A program made the translations under genes and the position numbers. Source: Allostella sp. ATCC 35155 (GTDB lineage Bacteria; Pseudomonadota; Alphaproteobacteria; ATCC43930; Allostellaceae). Taken from it: DNA of 64,000 bases. The stretch covers positions 2,848,001 through 2,912,000 of the forward strand of contig AP019701.1 of NCBI GenBank assembly GCA_006738865.1, written 5' to 3'. Positions 55,489 through 61,496 of this stretch are shown piece by piece. Below the pieces are notes generated by a model, which searched no databases, was not told the origin of the DNA, and worked only from the letters and a program-made list of their open reading frames with translations. Each line of letters starts with the position of its first letter. Position 1 is the first letter of the stretch.

Positions 55489-56898
55489 TCAGACCACCCG
55501 GAAGTTCTTGAACTGCCAGGGATCGTCCCGGTCGATATCCTCCGGGAACAGCACGCCCCGGTCCTGCAGCGGCGTCCAGTCGCCATATTGGCCGACGAGA
55601 TTGCCGAGATAGGGCGTCATGATCTCGAAGATGCGCTCGTGATCGATCTCGTCGGCCTCGACGAGGCCGGCGCGCGGGTTCTCGATCGCCCAGATGATGC
55701 CGGCCAGCACGCCGATCGTGACCTGCAGGCTGGTGGCGTTGTTGTGCGGGACCAGCGCGCGCGTCTCGTCGATGGTGAGGCGCGAGCCGAACCAATAGGC
55801 CCTCTTCGCATGGCCGAGCAGCAGCACGCCGAGCTCGTCGATGCCGCTGACCACCTCGTCGACGATCAGGCGCTGGCGCTCCTGCTGCTGCCAGTTGCGG
55901 CCGGCCAGCTCATGCACCGACAGCACCGCATCGTCGCACGGGTGATAGGCGTAGTGCACCGTCGGCCGGTACTGCGCCGCGCCGTCGGCCCCCCGCACGG
56001 TGTAGTAGTCGGCAATCGAAATCGACTCGTTGTGGGTGATGAGGAAGCCGTGGATGGTGCCGGCGAGCGGCGTCCAGGTCCGCACCCGCGTCGAGGCGCC
56101 GGGGCGCATCAGGTAGATGGCCGCGCCGCAACCCTCCTCGTGGCGGGCGCCGTCGGCCGGGAAATGCCGCTCGTGCGTGCCCCAGCCGAGTTCGGCCGGC
56201 TGGCAGCCCTCACTGACGAAGCCGTCGATCGACCAGGTGTTGACGAACTCGCCCGGCCGCTTCGGCGTCAGCGAGACCTGTGTGTCGCGCTCGGCGATAT
56301 GGATCACCTTGACGCCCAGGCTGTGGGCGAGCGTCGCCCAGCCGGCGCGGTCGGCGGGGGTTTCGACCGGCACGCCGGTGTCGCGCGCGATGTCGAGCAG
56401 CGCCCGCTTCACGAAGTAGGAGACGATGCCGGGATTGGCGCCGTGCGTGATCACGGCGGTCGCCCCGCCCTCGCAGCGCCGCTTCAGCTCCAGCGCCGTC
56501 TCGCGCAGGCCGTAGTTCGAGCGCTGCGAATAGCTGAGGTTGGGATCGGTGTAGCCACCCGGCCACGGCTCGATGCAGGTGTCGATGTAGAGCGCATCGA
56601 TCTCCTGGCAGAGCTCGACCAGCGCAAGGCTCGACACCTCGACGGAGAGGTTCACGAGGAAGTCGCCGGCGCCGAGCAGCGGCCGCAGGACGTCGGCAAA
56701 ATTGTCCCGCGTCAGGGGCCGCTCGATGAACTGCACGCCGTACTCGATCGCCACCTCGCGGCCGCGATTGTCGGCCGTGACGATGGTGATCTGATCCGGG
56801 GCGATGTCCATGTGCCGGAAGATGAGGGGCAGCACCCCCTGGCCGATGCTGCCCATGCCGACCATGACGATCTTCCCCGTGAACCGGACGTGCTTCAT
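55489..56898 (-). CDS. hss: Homospermidine synthase
   Basis: This 469-residue NAD+-dependent enzyme makes sym-homospermidine from two putrescines (or putrescine plus spermidine). The Rossmann loop reads GMGSIGQG (about 14-21). Family segments include TCIEPWPGGYTDP, THGANPGIVSYFVK and PHNNATSLQVT. It lies 73 nt downstream of the ornithine decarboxylase gene on the same strand, so the two form the homospermidine operon usual in alphaproteobacteria, and both are subject to the structured leader upstream. Confidence 0.95.
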   Translation of the reverse strand: MKHVRFTGKIVMVGMGSIGQGVLPLIFRHMDIAPDQITIVTADNRGREVAIEYGVQFIERPLTRDNFADVLRPLLGAGDFLVNLSVEVSSLALVELCQEIDALYIDTCIEPWPGGYTDPNLSYSQRSNYGLRETALELKRRCEGGATAVITHGANPGIVSYFVKRALLDIARDTGVPVETPADRAGWATLAHSLGVKVIHIAERDTQVSLTPKRPGEFVNTWSIDGFVSEGCQPAELGWGTHERHFPADGARHEEGCGAAIYLMRPGASTRVRTWTPLAGTIHGFLITHNESISIADYYTVRGADGAAQYRPTVHYAYHPCDDAVLSVHELAGRNWQQQERQRLIVDEVVSGIDELGVLLLGHAKRAYWFGSRLTIDETRALVPHNNATSLQVTIGVLAGIIWAIENPRAGLVEADEIDHERIFEIMTPYLGNLVGQYGDWTPLQDRGVLFPEDIDRDDPWQFKNFRVV

Positions 56899-56971: not shown

Positions 56972-58234
56972 TCAGGCGGCGACGGCAACCAGGTCGTAGC
57001 CCGGCGTCTCCAGCAGCGGCCGGTCCCGCACCTCGACGAGGCGGGCCTGGTCGAAGCCGTTGAACGCGGTCCGCAGCGAGCTTCCATAGGCACCGAGCTG
57101 ACCCAGTTCGATCCAGTCGCCCTCGCCGGCATCGGCGGGCAGCAGGAAGGGACCGGCCATGCGGTCGGCGCTGTCGCAGGTCGGCCCGAAGAAGCCGAAG
57201 GGAGCCTGCTCGGGGACCGCCGACCGGTCGAGCCGGATCAGCCGGGCCGGGAAGCGAAAGCCCGGCGCGCCCGCATCCGACAGGCTGCCATAGACGCCGT
57301 CATTGACGAACAGCATGTCGCCGCGGCGGTGCTGGACCTGCACGACCAGGGAGACGCCCGGCGCGACCAGCGCGCGGCCCGGCTCAGCCCACAGGCGGCA
57401 GCCGCCTGCCGCCAGTCGGGTCGCGGCGAAGGCGTCCGCGATCGCATCCATGAAGGCCGAGAGCGGCGGCGGCGTGATGTCCGGATAGCTGACGGGAAAT
57501 CCGCCCCCGACATCCAGCACGTCGACCGCGACGCCGGCTTCCTCGGCAACGGCGTCGGCGAGGCGGATCGCCCGCGCATAGGCGTCCGGTTCCATGCACT
57601 GCGAACCGACATGGAAGCAGATGCCGACGCGGTCGGCGACCTGGCGCGCACGGCGCAGCAGCTCGACCGCAGCGGCCGGCGTCGCGCCGAACTTGCCGGA
57701 CAGGTCGTAGAGCGTCTCGGCCTTGGGCGGCACCAGACGGACGAAGAGGCCGAGCCCCGGCGCGCCGTCGGTCTCCGCCACGATCTTCTCCAGCTCCTCG
57801 GCCGAATCCAGCGAGAAGTCGCGCACGCCATGGTCGAACCAGGCCGAACGGACCGCGGACCGCGCCTTCACCGGATGCATGTAGTGGATCTCGGCATCGG
57901 CGAAGAGCTGGCGCACGAGTCGGATCTCCGCCGGCGAGGCGCAGTCGAAATGGCGCACGCCGCCGGCATGGAGCGCGCGCAGCACGGTCGGCTCCGGATT
58001 GCACTTCACGGCATAGAGCACGTCGCCGGGAAAGGCACCGACGAACGAGCGCGCCGCCGCGGCCAGGACCGCAGGGCGCAGGCAGTGCATCGGCTCGTCC
58101 GGCGCGTGGGCGCGGACGACCTCGTCGATGAGCGGCAGACGCTGGGTGCCGCGGACACCGCGGCTCCCAGCCCAACGACCGGCGACAGGGCGGCGCAGCG
58201 GCGATACCGCGGAACGGTGACGCAGTTCAGTCAT
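56972..58234 (-). CDS. odc: Ornithine/lysine decarboxylase, fold III (alanine racemase type)
   Basis: This 420-residue PLP enzyme has the Schiff-base lysine in YAVKCNP (Lys77), the phosphate loop DVLDVGGGFPVSYPD, and the catalytic Cys in FGPTCDSADRM. It makes putrescine from ornithine (possibly cadaverine from lysine). The first 30 residues are an Arg-rich extension; the start is fixed by a GGGAGG ribosome site five bases before ATG 58234. The transcript carries a long structured leader with an upstream mini-ORF. It feeds homospermidine synthase. Confidence 0.93.
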   Translation of the reverse strand: MTELRHRSAVSPLRRPVAGRWAGSRGVRGTQRLPLIDEVVRAHAPDEPMHCLRPAVLAAAARSFVGAFPGDVLYAVKCNPEPTVLRALHAGGVRHFDCASPAEIRLVRQLFADAEIHYMHPVKARSAVRSAWFDHGVRDFSLDSAEELEKIVAETDGAPGLGLFVRLVPPKAETLYDLSGKFGATPAAAVELLRRARQVADRVGICFHVGSQCMEPDAYARAIRLADAVAEEAGVAVDVLDVGGGFPVSYPDITPPPLSAFMDAIADAFAATRLAAGGCRLWAEPGRALVAPGVSLVVQVQHRRGDMLFVNDGVYGSLSDAGAPGFRFPARLIRLDRSAVPEQAPFGFFGPTCDSADRMAGPFLLPADAGEGDWIELGQLGAYGSSLRTAFNGFDQARLVEVRDRPLLETPGYDLVAVAA

Positions 58235-58249
58235 GGCATCCTCCCGAAG

Positions 58250-58359
58250 CCCCGCCGGCGGCGGGGTCGGTTCAACGGCCCTGTTCCAGGCCGATCGATT
58301 TCCGGAAACAGGCGACGATGGACAGTTGGCCGGCCCTATCGGGTCGACCGGCCATCGTC
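58250..58359 (-). promoter_or_regulatory. Structured leader of the ornithine decarboxylase mRNA with competing hairpins
   Basis: On the minus strand, GACGATGG (58359-58352) can pair with CCATCGTC (58321-58314) around a GGCCGG/CCGGCC inner stem. CCTGTTTCC (58312-58304) can pair with GGAACAGG (58287-58280; one bulged A). A third stem CCCCGCC/GGCGGGG (58250-58266) sits just before the ribosome site. TTCCAGG (58367-58361) can instead pair with CCTGGAA (58290-58284), which excludes the middle stem. A conserved 'speF' RNA motif is known upstream of such decarboxylases in Alphaproteobacteria; I could not match its consensus by eye. Confidence 0.6.
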
Positions 58360-58408
58360 ACCTGGAATCAAGACGGGATGCGTGCGCTCCCGCGCGGGTC
58401 GCAACCAT
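58358..58408 (-). CDS. Leader mini-ORF of 16 codons upstream of ornithine decarboxylase
   Basis: ATG 58408 follows an AGGGAGG ribosome site by five bases and opens a 16-residue peptide, MVATRAGAHASRLDSR, ending at TGA 58360-58358. The stop overlaps the 5' arm of the first leader hairpin, and the last codons contain the TTCCAGG element. Translation of this ORF would therefore change the folding downstream. It lacks the HIRR motif of the enterobacterial SpeFL arrest peptide. Confidence 0.5.
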   Translation of the reverse strand: MVATRAGAHASRLDSR

Positions 58409-58580
58409 GTCCACCTCCCTCTCGGGACCGGCCCACTGTTGACCGGTTCTGCCAAAAAGGACGCGTCCGTCGTTACTTACCCCGTGGGGCATTGGCACGT
58501 GCGTGTGCGTCAGTACGAGGGGGGGATATACGGATTTTCGCCGGGAATGCAAGGCCGCTTTCGCAAGGCGATCCGACGCT

Positions 58581-59766: not shown

Positions 59767-60654
59767 TCAGTCGGGCCGGAAGAGGCTCAGATACTCGAAC
59801 GCGAAGGTGGCAGCGGCAAGCGCCGTGATCTCGGCCGTGTCGTACGGCGGGCTGACCTCGACCACGTCCATGCCGCGCCAGTCGATGCCGCCCAGGCGCC
59901 GCAGGATCGCCTGCGCCTGCCAGGTCCAGAGGCCGCCGATCTCGGGCGTGCCGGTGCCGGGTGCCTGGGAGGGGTCGATCGCGTCGATGTCGAAGGTGAG
60001 ATAGCTCGCACCGTCGCCGGCCACCCGGCGGATGCGATCGACGATGCCATCGACGCCGATCCGGTGGCACTCCTCGGCCGGCAGGATCGTCACGCCCTGC
60101 CCCACCGTCCAGTCCCAGACGTCGCGGCCGACGGGCGAGCGGATGCCAACCTGGATCATGCGCCGGGGGTCGACGATGCCCTCGCGGATGGCATGCCAGA
60201 AGACCGAGCCATGGCCCATCGGCTGGCCGAAGCTGTCGGGCCAGGTGTCGACATGGGCATCGAAATGGACGAGCCCCAGCGGCCCGGTGCGCCGTGCCAG
60301 GGCGCGCAGCAGCGGCAGGGTCACGGTATGGTCGCCGCCGAGCGCCACGAGATGCCCGGTCAGCGCCGCTGCCCGCGCCTCGATGCGGCGCAGGCTCTCC
60401 GCGATGTCGCCCAGCATGATCTCGAAATCGCCGATGTCGGCGAGGTCGAGCGCGGCCGGGCTCGCCCAGTTCGACGGGTTGACGCCGTCCACCAGCATCC
60501 GGCTGGCGGTGCGGATCGCCGCCGGCCCGAAGCGCGTCCCGGCGCGGTTGGTGGTGCCGATGTCGTAGGGCACGCCAGCGACGACGAAGCGCGACGCCGG
60601 ATCGTGCCGCAGGGTGCCGAGAAAGGTCGGCGGCGTGGCGAAGGTCGGGTTCAC
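59767..60654 (-). CDS. speB: Agmatinase (ureohydrolase family)
   Basis: This 295-residue ureohydrolase has the full manganese set: GGDHTVT (His about 108), DAHVD, MGHGS, and DIDAIDPSQAPGTGTPEIGG. It would release urea from agmatine to give putrescine, or act on a related guanidino or formimino compound. Its start overlaps the stop of the HutG-like gene by 4 nt. Agmatinase activity would link to the homospermidine operon nearby; the HutG-like neighbour would instead favour a formiminoglutamate-type substrate. Confidence 0.88.
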   Translation of the reverse strand: MNPTFATPPTFLGTLRHDPASRFVVAGVPYDIGTTNRAGTRFGPAAIRTASRMLVDGVNPSNWASPAALDLADIGDFEIMLGDIAESLRRIEARAAALTGHLVALGGDHTVTLPLLRALARRTGPLGLVHFDAHVDTWPDSFGQPMGHGSVFWHAIREGIVDPRRMIQVGIRSPVGRDVWDWTVGQGVTILPAEECHRIGVDGIVDRIRRVAGDGASYLTFDIDAIDPSQAPGTGTPEIGGLWTWQAQAILRRLGGIDWRGMDVVEVSPPYDTAEITALAAATFAFEYLSLFRPD

Positions 60655-61496
60655 GTCCGCTGCGCGACGAAGCCCACGATCTCGGCCGCAAGCCGCGTCA
60701 GGTCGGCCTGGAGCTGCTCGAAACGCGGGATCTTCCGGTGCGCCTCCTCGTCCATGTAGAGGGCGCGGTTGAGCTCGATCTGCAGGCTGTGGCGGCCGTC
60801 GGCCGGGCGGCCGAGGCGGCGCACGATCTCGACCCCCTTGTAGGGGTCGTTGACCTTGACCGAATAGCCCATGGCCGCGACCCGCTCGGCGACGAAGCCC
60901 GTGAATTCCGGCTCGCAGGTCGTACCGTCGCGGTCACCCAGCACAAAATCGGCCCGCGGCGTCCCGTCGCCATCGACGGAGCGCTTGTTGCCCGTCGACT
61001 GCATCGAGTGGCAGTCGATGTGCCAGACCTTGCCGAATCGCGCATGCGCCGCCTCGACCGCCGCGTCGAGGGCAGCCTGATAGGGCCGCCAGTAGCGGTC
61101 GATCCGCGCCTCGACCTCCGCGACCGACAGCTTGCGGTCGTAGATCGGAACCTCGCCCTTGATGAGGCGCCAGATCAGCCCGATGCCGCGGCCCGACTTG
61201 TCGCCGGGCGCCAGCGGGTGGGGCCAGGGCTCGTCGAGCAGGGCCGGGTCCATGTCCTCGAGCGCGCGGTTGGGGTCGATGTAGGCGCGCGGGAAGCCGG
61301 CCGCGACCATCGTCGCGCCGAGGCCCGCCGCCCCGGCCCACAGTTCGTCGACCCAGGCGTCCTCGGCCTGGCGCAGCAGCCCCCGGTCGCAGGCCGCCCG
61401 GAAATCATCCGGGTAGGCGTCGCCGCTGTGCGGGGAGTCGAGGACGAGCGGGACGGCCGCGACGCTGGGCGGCCGGACGAAGACGGGCTGGGGCAT
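60651..61496 (-). CDS. N-formylglutamate amidohydrolase-like (HutG family)
   Basis: This 281-residue protein matches the FGase family: VLDSPHSGDAYPDDF (metal site His), DPNRALEDMDPALL, WHIDCHSMQS (second metal-site His) and LGRPADGRHSLQIELNRALYMDE. Family members hydrolyse N-formyl-glutamate in histidine degradation. No other hut genes are here, and it lies 5 nt downstream of a peptide-type importer ATPase and overlaps agmatinase, so the substrate may be another N-formyl or N-acyl amino acid brought in by the importer. Confidence 0.88.
   Translation of the reverse strand: MPQPVFVRPPSVAAVPLVLDSPHSGDAYPDDFRAACDRGLLRQAEDAWVDELWAGAAGLGATMVAAGFPRAYIDPNRALEDMDPALLDEPWPHPLAPGDKSGRGIGLIWRLIKGEVPIYDRKLSVAEVEARIDRYWRPYQAALDAAVEAAHARFGKVWHIDCHSMQSTGNKRSVDGDGTPRADFVLGDRDGTTCEPEFTGFVAERVAAMGYSVKVNDPYKGVEIVRRLGRPADGRHSLQIELNRALYMDEEAHRKIPRFEQLQADLTRLAAEIVGFVAQRT

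Follow-up and report, generated by a model that had tools for sequence, protein, structure and literature searches.

What does the RNA that precedes the ornithine decarboxylase (ODC) gene, odc, do in the 64,000-nucleotide stretch of the Allostella sp. ATCC 35155 genome analysed here (the window)? The first-pass annotation had placed a translation-coupled attenuator at 58235–58440, in which a ribosome on a 16-codon mini-ORF would sense ornithine or polyamines. A leader in that interval proved to be real, though its strongest conservation lies 5′ of it, at 58511–58406. Our analysis confirms that odc is preceded by a folded 5′ regulatory RNA leader, and that this leader is conserved in many alphaproteobacteria before polyamine-synthesis genes. 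How it works is a matter of graded likelihood; we lean towards a mechanism in two steps, set out below.

The odc gene and the homospermidine synthase gene (hss) probably share one transcript. The nearest solved structures to the window ODC are lysine/ornithine decarboxylases, and the ODC of Stella vacuolata is 85% identical to it. A probable promoter was read from the sequence upstream of the leader, with transcription expected to start near 58518; TTGC[AG] and TAT-rich boxes stand at a constant distance from the conserved element in most leaders. We infer this promoter from its boxes because a consensus promoter scan of the window leader gave no site at the scanner threshold. Further upstream on the same strand lie genes for an arginase-family protein (59767–60654) and an N-formylglutamate amidohydrolase (60651–61496), so that arginine/histidine breakdown genes adjoin the polyamine operon. 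Features of the locus are collected in Table 1.

Table 1. Coordinates of the odc leader, its parts and its genes (window positions unless stated otherwise).
Feature	Position	Strand	Remarks
Homospermidine synthase (HSS)	55489..56898	(-)	phmmer E 3.5e-179 against a solved homospermidine synthase
ODC, alanine-racemase fold, window type	56972..58234	(-)	PF02784, PF00278
Ribosome site of odc, GGGAGG	58245-58240	(-)	odc ATG at 58234
Third stem, CCCCGCC/GGCGGGG	58250..58266	(-)	arms 58266-58260/58256-58250, directly 5′ of odc ribosome site
CCGGAA, putative partner of TTCC (58367-58364)	58300..58305	(-)	probable lower stem of the stop-codon hairpin; four Stella leaders aligned, by eye
Stop-overlapping attenuator-like hairpin, GGTGACGATGG...CCATCGTCGCC, with tail TGTTTCC	58304..58362	(-)	hairpin proper 58362-58311
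Arms of that hairpin: 5′ GGTGACGATGG, 3′ CCATCGTCGCC	58362-58352, 58321-58311	(-)	TGA 58360-58358 inside 5′ arm
Mini-ORF, 16 codons, MVATRAGAHASRLDSR	58358..58408	(-)	ATG 58408-58406, TGA 58360-58358
Small hairpin inside mini-ORF, CGGGA/TCCCG	58374..58392	(-)	from the sequence
Mini-ORF ribosome site, AGGGAGG	58414..58420	(-)	GAGAGGGAGG near-invariant in relatives
P4, CTTTTTGG with CCGAGAGG	58459-58452 with 58425-58418	(-)	region 58418..58459
P5 hairpin, ACCGGTC/GGGCCGGT	58447-58441 with 58433-58427	(-)	inside P4
5′ structured domain	58460..58511	(-)	homologous to ar45 ends; covariation in P1, P2; common to S. meliloti ar45
P1, GACGC/GCGTC	58511-58507 with 58464-58460	(-)	
Block GTAACGACG	58476-58468	(-)	within 5′ structured domain
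Hairpin CCCC/GGGG	58489-58480	(-)	within 5′ structured domain
Block CGCACGTGCC	58503-58494	(-)	within 5′ structured domain
Putative promoter, TTGCAT / 16-nt spacer / TATATC	58552-58547 / 58530-58525	(-)	probable; read from sequence
Second copy of the element, window's own genome	G000:C1:3412424-3412538 (L088 1054-1168)		precedes typical ODC; 47-codon leader ORF MFAVCRGAASRYIASSDILTISTFRRATRVVTLHEYRLPSSMTASRL

The conserved 5′ element

A 5′ element of ~105 nt (58511–58406, minus strand) is present in related orders and throughout the four Stella genomes compared, namely that of the window, which comes from a Stella species, and three more of the genus; identity is about 72–87% across the order. 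When the leader (266 nt) was used as a query, 44 of 99 related genomes gave matches, chiefly to its first ~100 nt; these include genomes without a close copy of the window-type ODC, in which the element precedes a typical ODC. A covariance model of the block found matches in 62 of the 385 alphaproteobacterial genomes sampled, and the element is present in 59/61 genomes of one family and 58/59 of another, where a genome mostly has two copies; these counts are not independent events since many sampled genomes are related. At 83 of 89 loci the element lies on the same strand as, and within 1.3 kb of, a gene for a typical ODC (50), a window-type ODC (27) or a homospermidine synthase (6); the other six had no downstream-gene match, and some of them end at a contig edge. 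The homospermidine synthase loci (L111, L120, L122, L127, L144 and L147) carry the element directly 5′ of the gene, with leaders of 14–16 codons, several of which share the pattern G-H, A-P-x-P-R, x-R-stop.

The leader folds better than expected by chance (z = -4.6; 0/200 shuffles as good). In helix P4 the leader ribosome site pairs with the strand that directly follows P1 (CUUUUUGG in the window). Only the first part of the site is hidden by P4 in the window; in the second Stella copy, paired by eye, P4 can be UACUUCC/GGAGGUA and covers the whole site. Among 95 sequences aligned to the model, 20 of 27 pairs change on both sides, including seven of the eight in P4 and all six in P5, and 95.4% of cells pair. 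Cells with changes on both sides number 120, against 15.6 in shuffles and 16–32 in slid controls, though fitting the alignment to the structure favours such counts. Covariation in the order-level alignment alone was uninformative because its columns barely vary. The first-pass annotation had named a start, stop or frame not conserved in relatives, or stems that do not covary, as refuting it; on this count it stands for the start codon, the RNA helices and the presence of an ORF, and the hairpin that overlaps the mini-ORF stop codon (below) covaries as well. We rejected a further reading frame in the 5′ block (ATGGCCCATCGTGGTTATGCAACGACGTAA), which lacks a ribosome site and is interrupted by single-base changes in Stella, and therefore take the block as RNA.

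Leader ORFs and the hairpin at the stop codon

The mini-ORF with its AGGGAGG site and its stop codon in the 5′ arm of a hairpin can be read directly in the window, as originally described. Start codon, ribosome site and the presence of an ORF are conserved in relatives, which bears out the idea of a translation-linked leader before odc; the exact length and sequence, by contrast, are common only to Stella. There the mini-ORF has 16 codons in all four genomes and is near-identical: three codons differ, two of them with a changed amino acid and one, for serine, with silent changes. Setting the rhizobial type aside, nearly every match across the class retains the start codon at the homologous place; in rhizobial speF leaders that place lacks an ATG and TTG or GTG frames are not preserved, and a leader ORF there was rejected. 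A hairpin within the ORF start occurs at 64 of 89 loci against 48.8 expected, which is weakly above chance, and we do not regard it as a general feature.

Leader ORF length tracks the downstream gene, being mostly 30–59 codons before typical ODCs and 8–16 before window-type ODCs and homospermidine synthase. Two families other than Stella give a clear sequence signature of translation. In a 36-codon family ending in DPSSL, dN/dS is 0.26 in the ORF frame, and the two other frames give 1.9 and 1.2; in a family ending in PSSIG, a motif whose last serine is AGU, seven different distances between ATG and motif occur, every one a multiple of three (32/32 related sequences). Neighbouring third positions are also frozen in the PSSIG family, so that selection at the RNA level overlaps the peptide there.

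The hairpin at the stop codon reaches a folding energy of -33 to -40 kcal/mol across the four Stella genomes, equalled by none of 60 shuffles in each case, and spans from 3–4 nt before the stop codon to 51–52 nt after it. Compensatory changes (U-A to C-G and A-U to G-C) mark its stem, and its upper stem covaries. The hairpin is followed by UUUU in three of the genomes and by UUU after a G in the window, where it would make a weak terminator; a scan of the window for intrinsic terminators found none. The switch proposed in the first-pass annotation, between TTCCAGG (58367–58361) and CCTGGAA (58290–58284), fared worse: both elements are in the sequence, but the other three Stella genomes lack this CCTGGAA at the corresponding position. 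What stands at the homologous place is CCGGAA in the window (58305–58300), CCTGGAA in two genomes and CCATCGAA in one, facing TTCCAGG, TTCTAGG and TTCGAGG. Judged by eye from these four sequences, the TTCC/CCGGAA pairing probably extends the same hairpin as a lower stem instead of making an alternative fold. The third stem, reported as adjoining the odc ribosome site, is in the sequence, and a GC stem of varying sequence occupies its place in all four Stella genomes.

Outside the four Stella, a hairpin near the leader stop was in clear excess over shuffles in only five of 21 representatives (L155, 0/60 shuffles; L202, 1/60; L216, L147 and L009, 2/60), and that of L009 starts 40 nt after the stop. 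Similar hairpins at or just after the stop, beating most or all shuffles, were seen in two Azospirillaceae-type leaders, one homospermidine synthase leader and L155, which precedes a typical ODC. We rejected an intrinsic terminator after every leader, as even with a loose cut-off of -10 kcal such terminators follow 7/21 short and 3/29 long leaders, against about five expected in each. An attenuator thus appears a good reading for Stella and a plausible one for some relatives, not a general one.

Kinship with the ar45 and speF leaders

A link to the alphaproteobacterial speF leader had been suggested, and the relation is real but distant. No Rfam model matched the window, even at E 10: RF00518 (speF leader, gathering 37 bits) was found neither there nor, in the class search, in Stella or its order, and RF02347 (ar45, gathering 40 bits) gave no match in the window. 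With the ar45 model, the best relative in the window's order (L047) scored 22.6 bits, exactly at the element; among the genomes analysed, the gathering score of the ar45 model is reached only in Rhizobiales, including Methylobacterium, and in Thalassospira. In the latter, a member of Rhodospirillales, three models match at one place: ar45 at 53 bits, speF at 59 bits and our own model R2 at 24 bits (E 1e-4). Model R2 also matches the RF00518 loci L066, L067, L068 and L165 weakly (E 3e-4 to 7e-3), at the ar45/speF position.

In the S. meliloti odc2 leader, ar45 is directly followed by the speF leader (L229 795–1104), one odc leader thus holding both side by side. The 5′ block of the window corresponds to the ends of ar45 (GCCC..UCGCACGUGCC ... 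GAAGCAACGACGGUGCGGGC-UUU). Common to both kinds of leader are their place before an ODC gene (of COG0019 type in the window, as in RF00518), the blocks CGCACGUGCC ... GCAACGACG, a P1 that closes before a U-run, a subsequent hairpin, and a strand, GAAGAGG/GAGAGGG, with which the U-run could pair. They differ in that the insertion is short in the window element and ~100 nt in the ar45/speF leader, and in that the conserved ribosome site, ATG and leader ORF of the window type are absent from the rhizobial versions seen. Since the window matches neither Rfam model and Thalassospira bridges the two kinds of leader, we call its element a divergent, distant relative of the ar45/speF odc leader, not a member; taken in a wide sense, these leaders include it by its homologous 5′ block and position, via intermediates. 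The ar45 sRNA ends at the U-run that pairs with the ribosome site in other orders, and ar45 may therefore be an attenuated product of an odc leader.

For the speF element, known since 2005, we found no report of a ligand in the open-access literature; ar45 has been catalogued as an sRNA of unknown function. Both now join a far larger collection of leaders, which precede both kinds of ODC as well as homospermidine synthase and have a ribosome site and start codon and, in some families, a peptide under selection. The joined set offers a concrete test of how alphaproteobacteria set polyamine levels, and suggests homospermidine as ligand together with a ribosome-dependent readout.

How the leader may work, and known odc leaders

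The reading that we favour, with only slightly better than even confidence, is that the leader of this operon for putrescine and homospermidine acts in two steps, a gate at P4 and a choice between ribosome and hairpin at the mini-ORF stop codon. First, the 5′ domain (P1–P3) and P4 would set how often ribosomes start at the mini-ORF, since part of the mini-ORF ribosome site is bound up in P4. Second, a ribosome that reached the end of the mini-ORF would cover the 5′ arm of the terminator-like hairpin in which the stop codon lies. As long as it sat there, polymerase would read through into odc; were it gone, or had it never arrived, the hairpin would form, and the message would end early or odc would be poorly translated. 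The step that responds to ornithine or a polyamine may be slow or stalled termination, and stalling of this kind, which the first-pass annotation had inferred, is plausible. We infer the order of these events, with termination as the output, P4 limiting ribosome entry and a ribosome at the stop keeping the hairpin open. Support comes from the linkage to polyamine genes, the covariation, the conserved start codon, the translated leader ORFs of relatives, the Stella stop hairpin, and the loci, no fewer than 11, at which the conserved ATG begins ODC itself, as a start codon gated by the element would predict; against it count the G before UUU in the window, terminator hairpins that are not general, rhizobial speF leaders without the ATG, the partial cover by P4, and a Stella peptide that varies in three codons only.

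The alternative that survives best, possible but on the unlikely side, is that access to the leader ribosome site is governed by the 5′ domain alone, acting as a metabolite riboswitch or a protein-binding site; the ribosome stopping on the Stella mini-ORF would then sense nothing, and the mini-ORF would be a relic of an ODC N-terminal extension or a coupling ORF. Consistent with this, the 5′ domain is far better conserved than the leader ORF, the short leaders share little sequence, and at no fewer than 11 loci the conserved ATG begins ODC itself, so that control there cannot need a separate peptide. (Where the leader ATG is the ODC start, at L083, L106, L113, L115, L117, L118, L128, L130, L131, L133 and L150, the ODC gains an N-terminal extension, often Arg-rich, and the annotated ODC starts may be wrong.) However, the peptide is under purifying selection or frame constraint in two families, with a conserved end, and an Agrobacterium relative bound none of six compounds, including ornithine, putrescine and spermidine (Corbino et al., PMC1273637), which weakens a simple riboswitch for those three; homospermidine is absent from that list.

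By analogy with SpeFL, and convergent with it, the nascent chain could itself be the sensor, with ornithine or a polyamine in the ribosome tunnel stalling the ribosome at the stop codon, a reading that we judge unlikely. The stop codon in a hairpin arm and the function of the pathway fit it, as do leader C-termini conserved beside the stop: PSS-AGU-I/L/M in long leaders and Arg-stop in most short ones, the window's included, with many close relatives among them. AGU makes up 64 of 225 serine codons in leaders (28%) against 22 of 1087 in ODC (2%), being otherwise rare in those genes; the sequences counted are related. Leader ORFs of 25–62 codons, in many families, mostly have an in-frame serine AGU 2–8 codons before the stop; pairing of this AGU with the 5′ block (ACUCG), or a role for it in a loop, was rejected as inconsistent between families. 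Yet the window peptide has no PSS motif, and conservation of the AGU codon and of the bases beside it exceeds what a peptide would require, so that part of the signal lies in the RNA. Broader still, and quite doubtful, is the proposal that one ancient leader element, found in much of the Alphaproteobacteria, governs both ODC and homospermidine synthase by way of short peptides: their ends (PSS with a fixed AGU, or Arg-stop) would render the ribosome that terminates on them responsive to ornithine or homospermidine, and the orphan ar45/speF would never have been a riboswitch but the gate for a peptide sensor. Improbable, finally, is plain polarity, in which the mini-ORF would only set the level of Rho-dependent termination or coupling, with no metabolite involved: most long leaders do lack an intrinsic terminator near the stop, and translation of the Salmonella leader ORF orf34 blocks Rho before speF (PMC6386406), but the 5′ domain and the leader C-termini are both deeply conserved, which points to a specific signal.

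Leader ORFs that control odc have precedents in Salmonella orf34-speF (PMC6386406) and the sphingomonad odc1 uORF (PMC8632094). The odc1 motif resembles the window leader as an alphaproteobacterial odc leader with a helix-held ribosome site and a short conserved uORF, but it is a different RNA, with two adjacent UUG starts and overlapping frames of a fixed 11 codons (PMC8632094). The window has an ATG and a separate 16-codon ORF in place of UUG-NN-UUG and an overlapping 11-codon uORF, and a Sphingomonas locus with the odc1 arrangement (L232) gave no match to model R2. The product of enterobacterial speF belongs to another ODC fold class than the window ODC. Its leader ORF, SpeFL/orf34, likewise stands before an ornithine decarboxylase gene, and there too a ribosome at the leader stop decides the downstream structure, whereas its 34 codons, its unrelated leader and its dependence on Rho set it apart (PMC6386406). 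In tnaC-type attenuators, whose inducer, peptide and terminator type are all different from or unmatched to those of the window leader, the ribosome at the leader stop codon is likewise the switch.
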